From the NCBI RefSeq assembly GCF_900112045.1, contig NZ_FOJW01000004.1:186001-250000 (forward strand): 64,000 nucleotides of DNA, in the 5' to 3' direction. How positions within the stretch are numbered: the first letter of the stretch is position 1; each line of letters opens with the position of its first letter. The notes under the pieces were generated by a model. It was not told the DNA's origin, did not search any database, and was given only the letters and a program-made list of their open reading frames with translations. This DNA comes from Lentibacillus halodurans. GTDB lineage: Bacteria; Bacillota; Bacilli; Bacillales; Amphibacillaceae. Made by a program: the position numbers and the translations under genes. Shown piece after piece: positions 49,899 to 56,429 of the stretch.

Positions 49899-50522
49899 CT
49901 AATCCGTCATCTCAATCCCCAGCGATTCGTACGGTACTTCGATATTGAATGCCAGGTTATTGGCTTCGAGATCTATATGTGCCACACTAACACGGAAGTT
50001 ACTTCTGATGTTCATATCGGTAACTGCTACATAAATTTCCTCATTTGCCGGATCTACCGTGACCCATTCCGGCATTGGCAAGTACTTTTTCAAATATGCC
50101 ATAATTTTTTTGTTCGGGAGTGCGAGCTGCCCGATAGAAATCGATTTTTGCTCCAGAATCACATCGCCATTTTCCTGTACAAGCGGTTCTAAATGGACAG
50201 ACACCGGCACAGTTGATGAAAAAACGGGAAGTTCCCCAACCAGTTCGACATCCTCATCCAGTGAAACACTGTACTGATGGCTGCTTCCCTTTAAAAGGTT
50301 ATCAATATAGGCATTTACCAATTCATTTAAATTCTGTTTGGTGGTACGGACCGTAAATTCCGAGCTGCGCTGTGTATTTTCCACTGATGGCTCAGGCGGT
50401 GCTGTTTCCTGTACAGGCCAGAAAACGAATACCGTAATGGTTAGAAGGACAAGCGCATTTACGCCTGCCAGCCAGAAAAACAGCTGCTTCCACTTATTTT
50501 TTTGTTTTTGATGTTTCGGCAC
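49899..50522 (-). CDS. ypmS: YpmS family protein (DUF2140)
   Basis: 207 residues. One N-terminal membrane helix (about 12-33) and an extracytoplasmic DUF2140 domain: LNELVNAYIDNLL, then VDPANEEIYVAVTDM. Function unknown. GTG 50522 follows AGGAGG, which overlaps the ypmR stop codon. It pairs with ypmR as in B. subtilis. Confidence 0.88.
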   Translation of the reverse strand: MPKHQKQKNKWKQLFFWLAGVNALVLLTITVFVFWPVQETAPPEPSVENTQRSSEFTVRTTKQNLNELVNAYIDNLLKGSSHQYSVSLDEDVELVGELPVFSSTVPVSVHLEPLVQENGDVILEQKSISIGQLALPNKKIMAYLKKYLPMPEWVTVDPANEEIYVAVTDMNIRSNFRVSVAHIDLEANNLAFNIEVPYESLGIEMTD

Positions 50523-50534
50523 AGCGCCTACCTC

Positions 50535-51437
50535 CTATTGATCTGTTAAAAATTCCAGCACCCGTCTGGTAAATTGCTGATATCCCTGATGATTCGGATG
50601 GAAATTATCGTCTGCGAATAAATCTTTATCCGTATCTTCAAACAAATCAGCAACGGGTATAAATGTCGTATCATGATACTGTTCCGTTACATTTCGGCTC
50701 GTTTCATTCCAGCTATTCACGATCATTTCAAGTTCTTCAATGTCCCCGAAATAGTTTACAAAAGGATTGTAAATACCGATTAGATAAATATCCGTATTTG
50801 GATTCAAAACATTTATTTTATCAAAAATCTGATGCAGACGGTCTTCATAAGCCCGCTTAGCCGTTGTGAAATCTTCTATTTGCAAGCTGGTGAAATTTTC
50901 TTTGACTACTTGCATAATATCATTTGCACCAATCGTGATCAGGACGATATTAGATTGTTCAATGGATTGTTCTATTTCTTGTTTATTTAGCCGTTCGAGA
51001 AGCTGGTCAGAACGATTACCGCGTTTACCGTATTGATCAAATGATACTAATTGAATACTTTCATTAATGGTTTTATCAAGTATGCCAACATAACCGCCAT
51101 CCACTACATTATCCCCGACACCTTGTGTTAGCGAATCACCAATTGCCGTAATGTGTGTATCCCGACTCATGAAAAAGTTCACTGTACGGCTTACTGCTTG
51201 CTGGAATAATTCCTGCAATTGGCTGACGGATTCTTCTGTGGCTTCTTCAGTTGAAACATCTTCATCATCCGCTGTATCCGTTTTATTGGAAGAGGTTTCC
51301 GTATTTTTGGTTTGGTCCTGTTGAGTCACTTGATTGTTCGATTCTTGGCTCGGTGTTTCCTGCTGCTGGACAATCAGAAAGAAAGTGATGCCTGCAAGCA
51401 GTATCCCCAAAATGATGAGCATGTATCGTCTGTTCAT
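50535..51437 (-). CDS. ypmR: Membrane-anchored GDSL/SGNH hydrolase (YpmR)
   Basis: 300 residues. N-terminal anchor (about 4-22), Gln/Ser/Thr/Glu-rich linker, then an SGNH esterase: block I AIGDSLTQGVGD (catalytic Ser), block III ITIGANDIMQV (oxyanion Asn), and block V FADDNFHPNHQGYQQF (catalytic Asp/His). Acts outside the membrane as a lipase or deacetylase; the substrate is unknown. ATG 51437 lies 7 nt after AGGTGTG. Forms an operon with ypmS. Confidence 0.9.
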   Translation of the reverse strand: MNRRYMLIILGILLAGITFFLIVQQQETPSQESNNQVTQQDQTKNTETSSNKTDTADDEDVSTEEATEESVSQLQELFQQAVSRTVNFFMSRDTHITAIGDSLTQGVGDNVVDGGYVGILDKTINESIQLVSFDQYGKRGNRSDQLLERLNKQEIEQSIEQSNIVLITIGANDIMQVVKENFTSLQIEDFTTAKRAYEDRLHQIFDKINVLNPNTDIYLIGIYNPFVNYFGDIEELEMIVNSWNETSRNVTEQYHDTTFIPVADLFEDTDKDLFADDNFHPNHQGYQQFTRRVLEFLTDQ

Positions 51438-51680
51438 GATTTTCACACCTGTGGTCAATTTTTTCTGGGAGTAGAGAAACTTTCGATACCGAAATCAGCT
51501 ATTTGCCGATTTTCACCAGCTTGGCCTCTATCCTCAGGAAAGTGAGGCAGTATAAGATGTAACACGTTCCATCGTAAATATGCAGCGAATGGTTTTGCAA
51601 GTATTAGCTTTTCCTGTACATTCTCATTATATCATGATTGTGCTTGACTAATCCCCGATATTCATCATGTAAAAACTTAA

Positions 51681-51706
51681 AAATTCGCCTCCCTGGAGAC
51701 GAATTT
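51681..51706. terminator. Terminator of metY
   Basis: AAATTCGCCTCC (51681-51692) pairs with GGAGACGAATTT (51695-51706), with one internal mismatch; T/A-rich tails occur on both sides. On the minus strand it follows the metY stop by 30 bp. Confidence 0.75.
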
Positions 51707-51735
51707 TTAAAAATTGGTATTTTTTATTTCAGTTT

Positions 51736-53505
51736 TTATCCTTGCGGTATTTGTACGGTCTCTTGCCGGGCGGAGTTCCCACGGATGCGAACGGCTTCCT
51801 GGTACGCATATTTACCAGTAATAACGGTAATCCCTGCTTCCTGTGCGTTTTCAAGCATCTGATCTGCTGCAACAGGGCTTTGTGCCCAAAAAATTTTGCC
51901 TTCCTTATTGTTTAGTTGCTCGATGGTTTTTGGTGGAAGTGCTTGCTCATTAGTCAAAATGGCATCTACGGTGACTGGCACATCATTTAACTGGTCAAAC
52001 GATTGATGATTTAAAACGACTTCTTCAGATGCGGCGATTGGAACGATTTGAAAGCCCAGCTGCTGCAGTTGTTTAACATGGTCGTAAAAGGATTGGTCCG
52101 AGTTATCCAGTCCGAATACAGCAATGACTTTTTGACGAATTTCTCCATTGGTACGGTCAAAAGGAGAAGCGAGCAGCCAATGAATGGCATCTTCTTCTGT
52201 TGACTGAATGGTTGGGGCTTCACCGGTTGCTTTGGCAATCGCCTGATCCAGATCAGCTAGCGTATCTTTGGTAGATTCAAGCCCGATTGAAAGACGGACC
52301 AATTCTTCTGTCACACCACTCTTTTCCAGATCTTCTGCACTCAATTGCTGATGGGTTGTCGAAGCCGGATGAATAATGAGTGACTTTGCATCCCCAACAT
52401 TGGCGACATGTGACCATAGCGTAATGTTGTCGATTAATTGTCTGCCTGCTTCACTACCACCTTTAATGCCAAACGTAATGATGGATCCATAGCCGTTTTG
52501 TAAATATTTGTTGGCTAACGGATGAGAAGGATGTTCTGTCAATCCCGGATAGTTGACCCACTCGACTGCAGGATGTTTATCCAGATAATCCGCGACCACT
52601 GCAGCATTTTGGCTGTGCCGTTCGATTCTCAAATGCAGTGTTTCAAGTCCCTGAAGCAATAAAAACGCATTTTGCGGACTCAAGCAGGCGCCGATGTCTC
52701 TCAGGAGCTGGACACGGAATTTTGTGGCAAAAGCTGCAGGACCAACGTCAATATAGCGCAGTCCACCGTAGCTTTCATCCGGTTCGGTGAATCCCTGGAA
52801 TTTCCCATTGCCCCAATTGAATCGTCCGCCGTCAACGACAACCCCGGCAATGGCTGTTCCATGGCCGCCGATCCATTTGGTGGCTGAATGTACCACGATG
52901 TCAGCACCCCATGTCAGTGGCTTGGTGACATATGGTGTTGCGAACGTATTATCTATGATTAGCGGGATGTCATGATCATGTGCAATTCGGGCAACGGTTT
53001 CGACATCAAAAACGTTCAAGCTTGGATTGGTGATAATTTCACCGAAAATCGCTTTCGTCCTTTCGGTGATGGCGTTTTGAATGCTTTCGGGATCTGTTCC
53101 ATCAACGAATGTCACATCAATTCCGTACTTTGGCAATGTATTGGCAAATAAATTGTACGTTCCCCCGTACAGATTGCTGTCAGCGACAATCTCATCGCCG
53201 CTGCCGGCAATATTTAAAATGGATAGTGTGATGGCTGCCATGCCTGATGAGGTTGCGACGGCTGCAACACCGTCTTCCAGTAAGGCAATCCGAGTCTCAA
53301 AAGCATCAATGGTTGGGTTCATGATACGGCTGTAGATATTGCCCGGTTCCGCCAATCCAAAAAGATTTTGGGCATGTTCAGTGTTCTCAAATACATAGGA
53401 AGTTGTCTGATAGATCGGAACCGCACGTGAACCTGTCGTCGGGTCCGGTTTCTGTCCCCCGTGAAGCAGTTGTGTTTCCTGGCTCGGCAAATGAAAATCG
53501 GTCAT
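51736..53505 (-). CDS. metY: O-acetylhomoserine sulfhydrylase fused to a CoA-binding-like domain
   Basis: 589 residues, against about 430 for usual MetY. Residues 1-430 are a complete Cys/Met-metabolism PLP enzyme: [30 protein letters not shown], the PLP lysine in [11 protein letters not shown] (near 207), RLSIGLEST. It makes homocysteine from O-acetylhomoserine and sulfide. Residues ~457-575 look like a Rossmann-type CoA-binding domain (YccU-like): [36 protein letters not shown], and [19 protein letters not shown]. The frame runs through without a break, so this is a true fusion; the extra part may sense acyl-CoA. Control is by the SAM riboswitch upstream. Confidence 0.92.
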
Positions 53506-53721: not shown

Positions 53722-53752
53722 AAAAACCCCCTTCATAAGAGAAGAGGGTTTT
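53722..53752 (-). terminator. Expression-platform terminator of the SAM riboswitch
   Basis: On the minus strand AAAACCCTCTTC (53741-53752) pairs with GAAGGGGGTTTTT (53722-53734) with one mismatch, ending in T5. It forms when the S-box binds SAM. Confidence 0.85.
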
Positions 53753-53888
53753 CTATGTAACCGATCCTCCTCTTATCTTCCAGATCTCTCTTGACCTGTA
53801 GGATTTAGCACCTTTCAAGACTTTTCAGTTTGCCTTGATGGTTGCCGGGCTTCACAGGGCCTATTCCCTCCACCGCTCTTGATAAGAG
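53753..53888 (-). promoter_or_regulatory. SAM-I (S-box) riboswitch controlling metY
   Basis: On the minus strand the aptamer opens with CTCTTATCAAGAGCGGTGGA (53888-53869), followed by GGGAATAGGCCCTGTGAAGC and CCGGCAACC, the S-box core. P1 is CTCTTATC with GATAAGAG-type pairing near 53770 (AGATAAGAGGAGG). High SAM should stabilise the terminator at 53722-53752 and turn metY off. Confidence 0.93.
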
Positions 53889-53914: not shown

Positions 53915-53944
53915 ATTATATACATGATTTGGCATATTCGTCAA
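53915..53944 (-). promoter_or_regulatory. Promoter of the metY riboswitch transcript
   Basis: On the minus strand TTGACG (53939-53944), an 18-bp spacer and a perfect TATAAT (53915-53920), about 27 bp before the aptamer. It sits directly after the rarD stop codon. Confidence 0.75.
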
Positions 53945-55244: not shown

Positions 55245-56429
55245 ATGATGAAGTATCATAAGCAGTCTGAAACGTCGGTTATTCATGATGGCTATGACTC
55301 TGATGATATGCTGGGAAGTCTTGCTCTACCACTGTTTCAGACATCTACCTTTACATTTGAAACCGCAGAGCAGGGAGAGCGCCGGTTTGCCGGTGAGGAA
55401 AATGGCTATATGTATTCGAGGCTGGGTAATCCAACCGTCACAGTACTGGAGGAAAAAATGGCTGCCTTGGAAAAAGGGGAGCGCGGACTGGCTTTTGCAT
55501 CCGGAATGGCGGCGGTTTCAGCGATACTGGTGGCCTTGACCAAAGCAAATGATCATATATTATGTTCTTCAGGCTTATATGGCTGTACATTCGGTTTACT
55601 AAATATGATGAAAGAAAAATACAATATTACACATGACTTTTCGGTGATGGGAACAAAAGATGAACTGCGCGCATTAATCAGGCCAGAAACTGCCTGTATT
55701 TACGTTGAAACACCAATCAACCCGACGATGAAGCTGATTGATCTGGAAATGGTTGCTGAAGTAGCGCACGAACGTGACATCCCTATCGTGGTCGATAACA
55801 CATTTGCATCCCCGCATTTGCAGCGTCCGCTTGAGATTGGCTGTGATGTGGTCATTCACAGTGCGACAAAATACATCGGCGGGCATGGGGATGTCATTGC
55901 CGGAGTTGCTGTCGGGAATAAGGAATTTTTGGATAACGTGCAAATGACAACACAAAAAGATATGGGCGGCGTTATGTCCCCGTTTGATGCGTGGCTTTTG
56001 ATCAGAGGACTGAAAACCTTACCGATTCGGGTTGACCGCCACTGTCATAATGCGGAAAAAATTCATTGGAAATTGCGCAGCCATCCCAAAGTAGCCCGTG
56101 TTTTTTATCCGGATGATTCACGTCATCCTGATTATCATATCCGGCAAAAGCAAATGAAACGCGGCGGTGGAATCATTTCTTTTGAAATCAATGGAACAAA
56201 ACCAGATGCCCAGCAAATGCTGAATAACCTGAACTTTATTAAAATCGCTGTCAGCCTCGGTGATGCTGAAACACTCATTCAGCACCCGGCAACCATGACA
56301 CATGCGGTCGTTCCGGAAGTATCCAGGCAGGAAATGGGAATCAGTGATCAGCTTATCCGATTATCAGTAGGGCTTGAAGCATGGGATGATATCTGGGCGG
56401 ATCTTGAACAGGCGCTGGACCAGCTGTAA
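55245..56429 (+). CDS. megL: Methionine gamma-lyase
   Basis: 394 residues of the Cys/Met-metabolism PLP family. Features: YSRLGNPTVTVLEEKMA, SSGLYGCTF with the cysteine typical of methionine gamma-lyase (Cys116 in Pseudomonas), DNTFASPHLQRPL, PLP lysine in HSATKYIGGHGD, and SLGDAETLIQHPATMTHA. It splits methionine to methanethiol, 2-oxobutyrate and ammonia. Cystathionine gamma-lyase is the alternative; the YGCTF and GHGD motifs favour methionine. ATG 55245 is 8 nt after AAGGGGG; the upstream TTG 55227 overlaps that site. No SAM riboswitch here. Confidence 0.88.
   Translation: MMKYHKQSETSVIHDGYDSDDMLGSLALPLFQTSTFTFETAEQGERRFAGEENGYMYSRLGNPTVTVLEEKMAALEKGERGLAFASGMAAVSAILVALTKANDHILCSSGLYGCTFGLLNMMKEKYNITHDFSVMGTKDELRALIRPETACIYVETPINPTMKLIDLEMVAEVAHERDIPIVVDNTFASPHLQRPLEIGCDVVIHSATKYIGGHGDVIAGVAVGNKEFLDNVQMTTQKDMGGVMSPFDAWLLIRGLKTLPIRVDRHCHNAEKIHWKLRSHPKVARVFYPDDSRHPDYHIRQKQMKRGGGIISFEINGTKPDAQQMLNNLNFIKIAVSLGDAETLIQHPATMTHAVVPEVSRQEMGISDQLIRLSVGLEAWDDIWADLEQALDQL

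Follow-up and report, generated by a model that had tools for sequence, protein, structure and literature searches.

A metY gene of Lentibacillus halodurans raises the question of what an additional C-terminal domain contributes to an O-acetylhomoserine sulfhydrylase. The preliminary description of the locus had suggested that this domain could tie homocysteine synthesis to the acyl-CoA pool. The gene lies on the minus strand of a 64,000-nucleotide stretch of genomic DNA (hereafter the window), in which a single uninterrupted 589-aa ORF fills exactly positions 51736–53505; the plus strand of this interval contains many stops in the translated frame. According to profile searches and alignment, the protein comprises a PLP-enzyme core (aa 10–423; 52237–53478), a linker (aa 424–458; 52132–52236), a predicted Rossmann domain homologous to CoA_binding_2 (PF13380; aa 459–562; 51820–52131) and a C-terminal end (aa 563–589; 51739–51819), all on the minus strand. 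The linker has the consensus WLLxSPFDRxxGxxRxK, and the C-terminal end carries a motif, YxEAxRxRG, that is common to the type-B fusions described below. With PF01053 followed by PF13380 in one frame, the fusion that the preliminary description had recognized is real.

The core was assigned by two models. PF01053 covers aa 10–423 with 467 bits (cut-off 27; E = 3.5e-140), and TIGR01326, which represents the MetY subfamily, scored 648.1 bits against a cut-off of 495.1 over model positions 2–417 of 418. The region aa 10–426 aligns with MetY relatives in the PDB, 7kb0 and 8sf5 among them. Lys210, in the S-A-T-K motif of the segment SATKW, is invariant across 27 aligned fused proteins and is presumably the PLP-binding lysine. 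Overall, the core is predicted to be a MetY-type O-acetylhomoserine sulfhydrylase. Its score against the homocysteine synthase model PRK08248 (NF006096 equivalog) was 679.5 bits, below the cut-off of 726, and we therefore kept it out of that equivalog.

The identity of the extra domain was addressed by profile, sequence and structure comparisons. PF13380 matched aa 459–562 of the full-length protein with 42.2 bits (cut-off 22.8; E = 1.3e-10) and the isolated tail with 44.6 bits (2.3e-11). A phmmer search with the tail alone recovered two solved proteins of the CoA-binding family, PH1109 (2d59; 2.2e-5) and 2duw (4.2e-5). An AlphaFold2 model of the tail had a pLDDT of 84.6 and a pTM of 0.79; its 23-row alignment included canonical relatives, and the modelled fold is therefore partly borrowed from them. 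The best Foldseek matches of this model were the CoA-binding-family structures 2d59, 3qa9, 2d5a, 2duw and 1iuk, with TM-scores by target of 0.68–0.75. A model of the full-length protein was weaker (pLDDT 76.7, pTM 0.67), and the α/β elements of the tail were visible in it too. Together, these matches and models point to a domain homologous to the YccU/CoA_binding_2 family, with the Rossmann-like fold of that family predicted for it, as had been proposed from the letters alone. Each of 14 control genomes had at least one match to the family, which exceeded the cut-off in 11 of them, and the genome that contains the window also encodes a CoA_binding_2 protein that is canonical and stands alone (133 bits). 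To our knowledge, stand-alone YccU-type proteins have no agreed function.

The fusion is widespread among close relatives. Fused MetY was found in all 12 genomes of the genus examined and, in the family, at least 145 of 159 genomes encode MetY with one of two tails, which we call type A (worn domain, as in the window) and type B (intact domain). Two of these 145 have a cut or interrupted frame: G022, counted as type B with a frame of merely 151 aa, and G057, counted as type A with an interrupted one. Among the matches listed, type A occurs in 112 and type B in 47 of the 159 genomes, 14 genomes carry both and 14 neither, and the genus of the window has type A in 12/12 and type B in 0/12 genomes. 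When 398 genomes were drawn from the phylum, a tail match at 1e-12 was obtained in 128, mostly to stand-alone proteins. Where a frame of at least 595 aa with a tail identity of at least 50% was called a fusion, fusions were present in only six of these genomes besides the window's own, and the fusion is thus concentrated in the window's family.

This distribution bears on a trivial explanation, namely that an error in sequencing, or a wrongly placed stop, merged two adjacent genes. Separate neighbouring genes do exist in other phyla; otherwise we found nothing in favour of such an artefact. The same single frame recurs in independent genomes, 12/12 within the genus and most of those in the family, which refutes it and leaves it with a negligible probability. 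The caution in the preliminary description, that the fusion might be an error signature of one genome, is hereby removed.

For 43 genomes of the family, the fused tail match was weak, cut, unclear or absent; 35 of these contain MetY at 1e-120. Thirty MetY loci were fetched from them and 28 encode a tail of 115–152 aa, which does not support a general loss of the tail where the tail search was weak or empty. One of the other two loci (L249, G005:C23) encodes an unfused MetY that is 72% identical to the window core in a 463-aa frame, and a second MetY copy of G029 is likewise unfused (69%, 466 aa); these two may be cases of tail loss. Among the matches listed, G020 and G021 have only unfused MetYs (60–61%, 468–475 aa). 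At the second of the two loci without a tail (L225, G057:C5), a type-A metY is read as broken by an in-frame stop.

To compare the tails, we used a signature of 15 positions within GLS, RPS, PVNP, VFR, WLQEG and NRC, picked from one type-B protein. We take these residues to contact CoA, judging by their conservation in the family. The signature was complete, 15 of 15, in 24/24 type-B fusions, a score that is partly built in because the positions were picked from type B; the other sets are independent of that choice. Five other fusions, from Thermomicrobium roseum and from Bacillota outside the family, have 14–15 of the residues, 14 separate proteins whose genes adjoin metY have 11–15 (L215 was left out of this set), and the stand-alone relative in the window genome has 13. 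Type-A tails scored far lower: 0–6 (median 2) for 61 of them and 3–5 (median 4) for eight more, from genomes that also encode type B. The window tail, with 4 of 15, lacks most of the YccU-type signature, while retaining the Rossmann Gly and Trp. Across all 69 type-A tails, a set without the tail-less L225 and L249, the Arg after the first loop, the last Pro of PVNP and the Phe of VFR are found in 0/69 and the Arg of VFR in 1/69. The same contrast was seen when 41 type-A and 24 type-B proteins were aligned, after duplicates and anything no longer than 540 aa had been discarded: B holds most canonical residues constant, whereas A has lost them.

The two types also differ in how well the tail as a whole is conserved. 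PF13380 was recognized at E ≤ 0.01 in 37/69 type-A versus 19/19 type-B tails; tail lengths are 115–161 aa (median 146) in A and 161–168 aa in B; and columns conserved to at least 70% number 22 of 149 in A versus 121 of 167 in B. The best-kept parts of type-A tails are the linker, with SPFxR...RxKxI, and a C-terminal Arg; S19, P20, F21, R23, R29 and K31 of the tail are invariant or at least 90% conserved among the 69 sequences, making the linker the best-conserved segment. For the aligned 41 A and 24 B proteins, non-synonymous changes in the tail ran at 4.4–5.3 times the core rate in A and at 0.8–1.2 times in B, by identity bin. Among the 12 closest pairs, the dN/dS of the type-A tail was 0.07–0.23 in 10 and saturated in two, with core values of 0.02–0.04 in the 11 pairs that could be computed; many dS values exceed 1, and these rate ratios are therefore rough. 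The type-A tail is under purifying selection and changes faster than the core. From this pattern we infer that the domain is needed as a folded, attached unit but no longer has a conserved pocket.

These data bear directly on the proposal that MetY in the window is regulated by the acyl-CoA pool through binding of CoA or acetyl-CoA to its tail. The proposal draws on the PF13380 match above the cut-off, on the canonical relatives fused to or encoded beside metY, and on the origin of the substrate: the MetX/MetY pathway is described with O-acetylhomoserine made from acetyl-CoA (PMC10416483). Set against it are the loss of 11 of the 15 signature residues from the window tail, the near-absence from type A of the two Arg, the Pro and the Phe listed above, and a tail that accumulates non-synonymous changes four to five times faster than the core. 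Because the signature is mostly lost in the window protein and in type A, CoA or acyl-CoA sensing is unlikely there; we regard it as quite improbable for the window tail, in which CoA binding has most likely been lost, as judged from the signature. The link to the acyl-CoA pool is thus plausible for type B and unlikely for the very protein on which it had been proposed.

A second possibility is that the type-A tail was re-purposed for another small ligand or a partner protein, its fast change reflecting new binding and not decay. The partner might, for example, be a sulfide donor or a MetA-type acyltransferase. Retention of the tail at 28 of the 30 loci checked, a tail dN/dS far below 1, and the conserved linker and C-terminal motif all fit such a role. 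So does the gene content of the window genome, which encodes a MetA-family acyltransferase (PF04204, 458 bits) and gave no match to MetX at 1e-10; with one query, this empty answer is weak by itself. With MetA present and no MetX match, type A and type B may have different partners. The scant conservation across type A, at 22/149 versus 121/167 columns, argues against a new, shared binding function, and we consider re-purposing unlikely.

Beyond the family, the same two proteins meet repeatedly. A scan of named genomes for canonical tails yielded 594 hits. Among the best 80 of these 594 there were six fusions (Gracilibacillus kekensis, Fictibacillus sp., Amphibacillus jilinensis, a Bacillota MAG, Terribacillus saccharophilus and Evansella halocellulosilytica) and eight separate CoA-binding genes directly beside metY, on contigs labelled Rhodothermus, Chloroflexota, Gammaproteobacteria, Actinophytocola, Pseudomonadota, Rickettsia typhi, Comamonadaceae and Planobispora. 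Gene order is reversed in three of these eight pairs, one further locus had been flagged falsely, and for 65 of the best 80 of 594 metY was not found within the locus. One Bacillota genome (L105) has metY and the CoA-binding gene as neighbours. In a 60-genome draw from the class of Actinophytocola oryzae, 10 genomes matched at 11 places; of the 10 places viewed (nine fetched, plus L158), metY directly precedes the CoA-binding gene in seven and was not found at three. Overall, several phyla pair MetY with the CoA_binding_2 family, either by fusion or as neighbouring genes.

Some candidates and labels from this survey call for comment. A match on a plasmid of Vibrio sp. HDW18 (95% query cover, 41% identity) was rejected as a fusion: MetY there ends at 422 aa, and the remainder of the match crosses stops into an unrelated LysR-type gene. 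L144, flagged as adjacent, has just a 35%-identical relative 3 kb away, and the locus was not counted. The CoA-binding gene beside metY in the MAG labelled Rickettsia typhi (L172) is close to that of the Comamonadaceae MAG, and the entry labelled Gammaproteobacteria (L147) groups with actinomycetes and a Chloroflexota MAG; the organism labels of both MAGs are doubtful.

A quick maximum-likelihood tree of 61 cores, which has several long branches and is unsure in its deep part, placed type A in one clade (support 100) and A + B together in one clade (100), while B as a single clade was weakly supported (57). A separate group (99) unites the fusions of T. roseum and of two Bacillota genomes from a different family; a further two fusions from Bacillota fall at yet another place (85). 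With the fusions scattered in this way, a single fusion event or several are possible.

The genes around metY distinguish the two types further. We compared 40 neighbourhoods from 32 genomes, including the window's, comprising 19 type-B and 21 type-A loci; proteins were clustered at 35% identity and the neighbour families were named from one type-B representative locus. An AMP-forming acyl-CoA ligase is encoded at 17/19 B versus 0/21 A loci, SsuABC-type (sulfonate-type) importer genes at 14/19 versus 0/21, metX at 11/19 versus 7/21, and homoserine dehydrogenase at 8/19 versus 3/21. The type-B ligase best matched acetate--CoA ligase PRK04319 (790 bits, cut-off 729), and the binding protein of the importer belongs to the SsuA family (259 bits, cut-off 163.5). 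The window genome contains a 57% relative of the type-B ligase.

Such clusters could mean that the ancestral, type-B domain is no sensor and delivers an acyl-CoA-linked organosulfur compound to MetY, in concert with the co-encoded importer and ligase. Besides the frequency of these two neighbours, SsuABC-type genes beside an actinomycete metY/CoA-binding pair (L213), as in type-B clusters, and SsuB- and SsuC-like neighbours of another (L158) are in keeping with it. In T. roseum, moreover, the fused metY lies between acyl-CoA ligase and enoyl-CoA hydratase genes (L036:4108-8675). To us, this arrangement is reminiscent of methylthiopropionate breakdown. However, no C–S cleaving enzyme was identified among the other gene clusters common to B loci, and the ligase tested fits an acetate--CoA ligase best, as would be expected of acetate recycling. 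Organosulfur delivery therefore seems improbable to us.

Both types appear to be controlled at the RNA level. In the window, the metY leader contains a SAM (S-box) riboswitch aptamer at 53770–53888 on the minus strand (Rfam RF00162, 85.1 bits, gathering score 44.4). Pattern scans placed a sigma-70-like promoter upstream of it (TTGACG-18-TATAAT, 11/12; 53915–53944, minus strand), one of five promoter-like sites against a shuffle mean of 4.2, and terminator-like hairpins just after the aptamer (53722–53753) and past the metY stop (51676–51711), both on the minus strand and among three in 2.6 kb against a shuffle mean of 2.6. The first hairpin is likely the riboswitch attenuator, and the second, with the leader signals, suggests that metY is a one-gene S-box transcription unit. 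An RNA scan of 24 of the 40 neighbourhood loci, plus the window, detected an S-box directly before metY in 12/12 A and 12/12 B loci, and the riboswitch was discarded as a mark separating the types. Two type-B loci carry tandem SAM riboswitch aptamers before metY (L054:7641-7934 and L064:7664-7957), possibly a double gate.

The immediate surroundings of metY in the window contain further genes of interest. Downstream, at 49899–51458 on the minus strand, are genes for a GDSL-type lipase and a DUF2140 protein, whose place is kept in many relatives and which a terminator-like hairpin separates from metY. A gene at 55245–56426 on the plus strand encodes methionine gamma-lyase (670 bits against PRK06767, cut-off 617), so that an enzyme of methionine breakdown is encoded close to the homocysteine synthase. 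In several related loci, a relative 35–37% identical to the MetY core is encoded near metY.

Our preferred explanation, which we hold to be probable, starts from a fused, type-B-like ancestor with a CoA role, from which the SAM-riboswitch-controlled MetY of the window would have inherited its C-terminal domain. Type B is taken as ancestral because its canonical residues are shared with the fusions outside the family and with the unfused partners. The type-B domain is a probable binder of CoA or acyl-CoA; that it senses them is a reasonable idea in light of the intact signature. MetX would consume acetyl-CoA in forming O-acetylhomoserine, MetY would free acetate, and the ligase of the cluster would re-make acetyl-CoA, so that the domain could let the CoA/acetyl-CoA state gate the entry of sulfur. 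The fused gene would then have been duplicated and the type-A branch would have lost the CoA signature, the domain being kept in frame as a fast-changing folded appendage on a conserved linker. The window protein would thus carry a worn sensor, with control left to the SAM riboswitch and the tail presently serving the folding, assembly or stability of the enzyme.

A broader proposal is more tentative. MetY and CoA_binding_2 may constitute a widespread, unrecognized module in which CoA or acyl-CoA gates inorganic sulfur into methionine, with a 'CoA-blind' pseudo-sensor isoform arising later in Bacillaceae-type genomes; we consider this possible rather than probable. The same reserve applies to the extent of the module, which would be fused in Bacillota and Thermomicrobium and adjacent in Actinomycetota, Chloroflexota, Rhodothermota and contigs labelled Pseudomonadota. 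If the proposal is true, at least 14 genomes hold both isoforms, and the genus of the window only the CoA-blind one. The repeated pairing with MetY would offer YccU-type proteins a concrete and cheaply testable job, the CoA control of homocysteine synthesis, and types A and B, both behind SAM riboswitches, would be a natural control pair for testing it. An article on the sulfhydrylases and SAM riboswitches of Geobacter (PMC2700814) contains the term CoA-binding 0 times. In the open-licence literature, we found no description of the MetY–CoA_binding_2 pairing. The architecture is presumably listed in domain databases.

Compared with known systems, the window protein resembles MetY/homocysteine synthases (TIGR01326, PF01053) in its full-length core and in its SAM-riboswitch control, and differs in length: among the 60 best of 100 matches, PDB chains so named have 412–464 aa and no extra domain. 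It resembles stand-alone YccU-type CoA_binding_2 proteins (2d59/2d5a, 2duw, 1iuk and 1y81) in the fold predicted by the model and in a weak but significant sequence match; unlike them, the window domain is fused behind a PLP enzyme and has mostly lost the signature. The CoA-binding subdomain of ADP-forming acyl-CoA synthetases and PatZ (4xyl, 2csu and 9isq) is a more distant relative by structure and profile. That subdomain sits in a multi-domain synthetase or acetyltransferase, whereas the sole other domain found in the window protein is a PLP enzyme.
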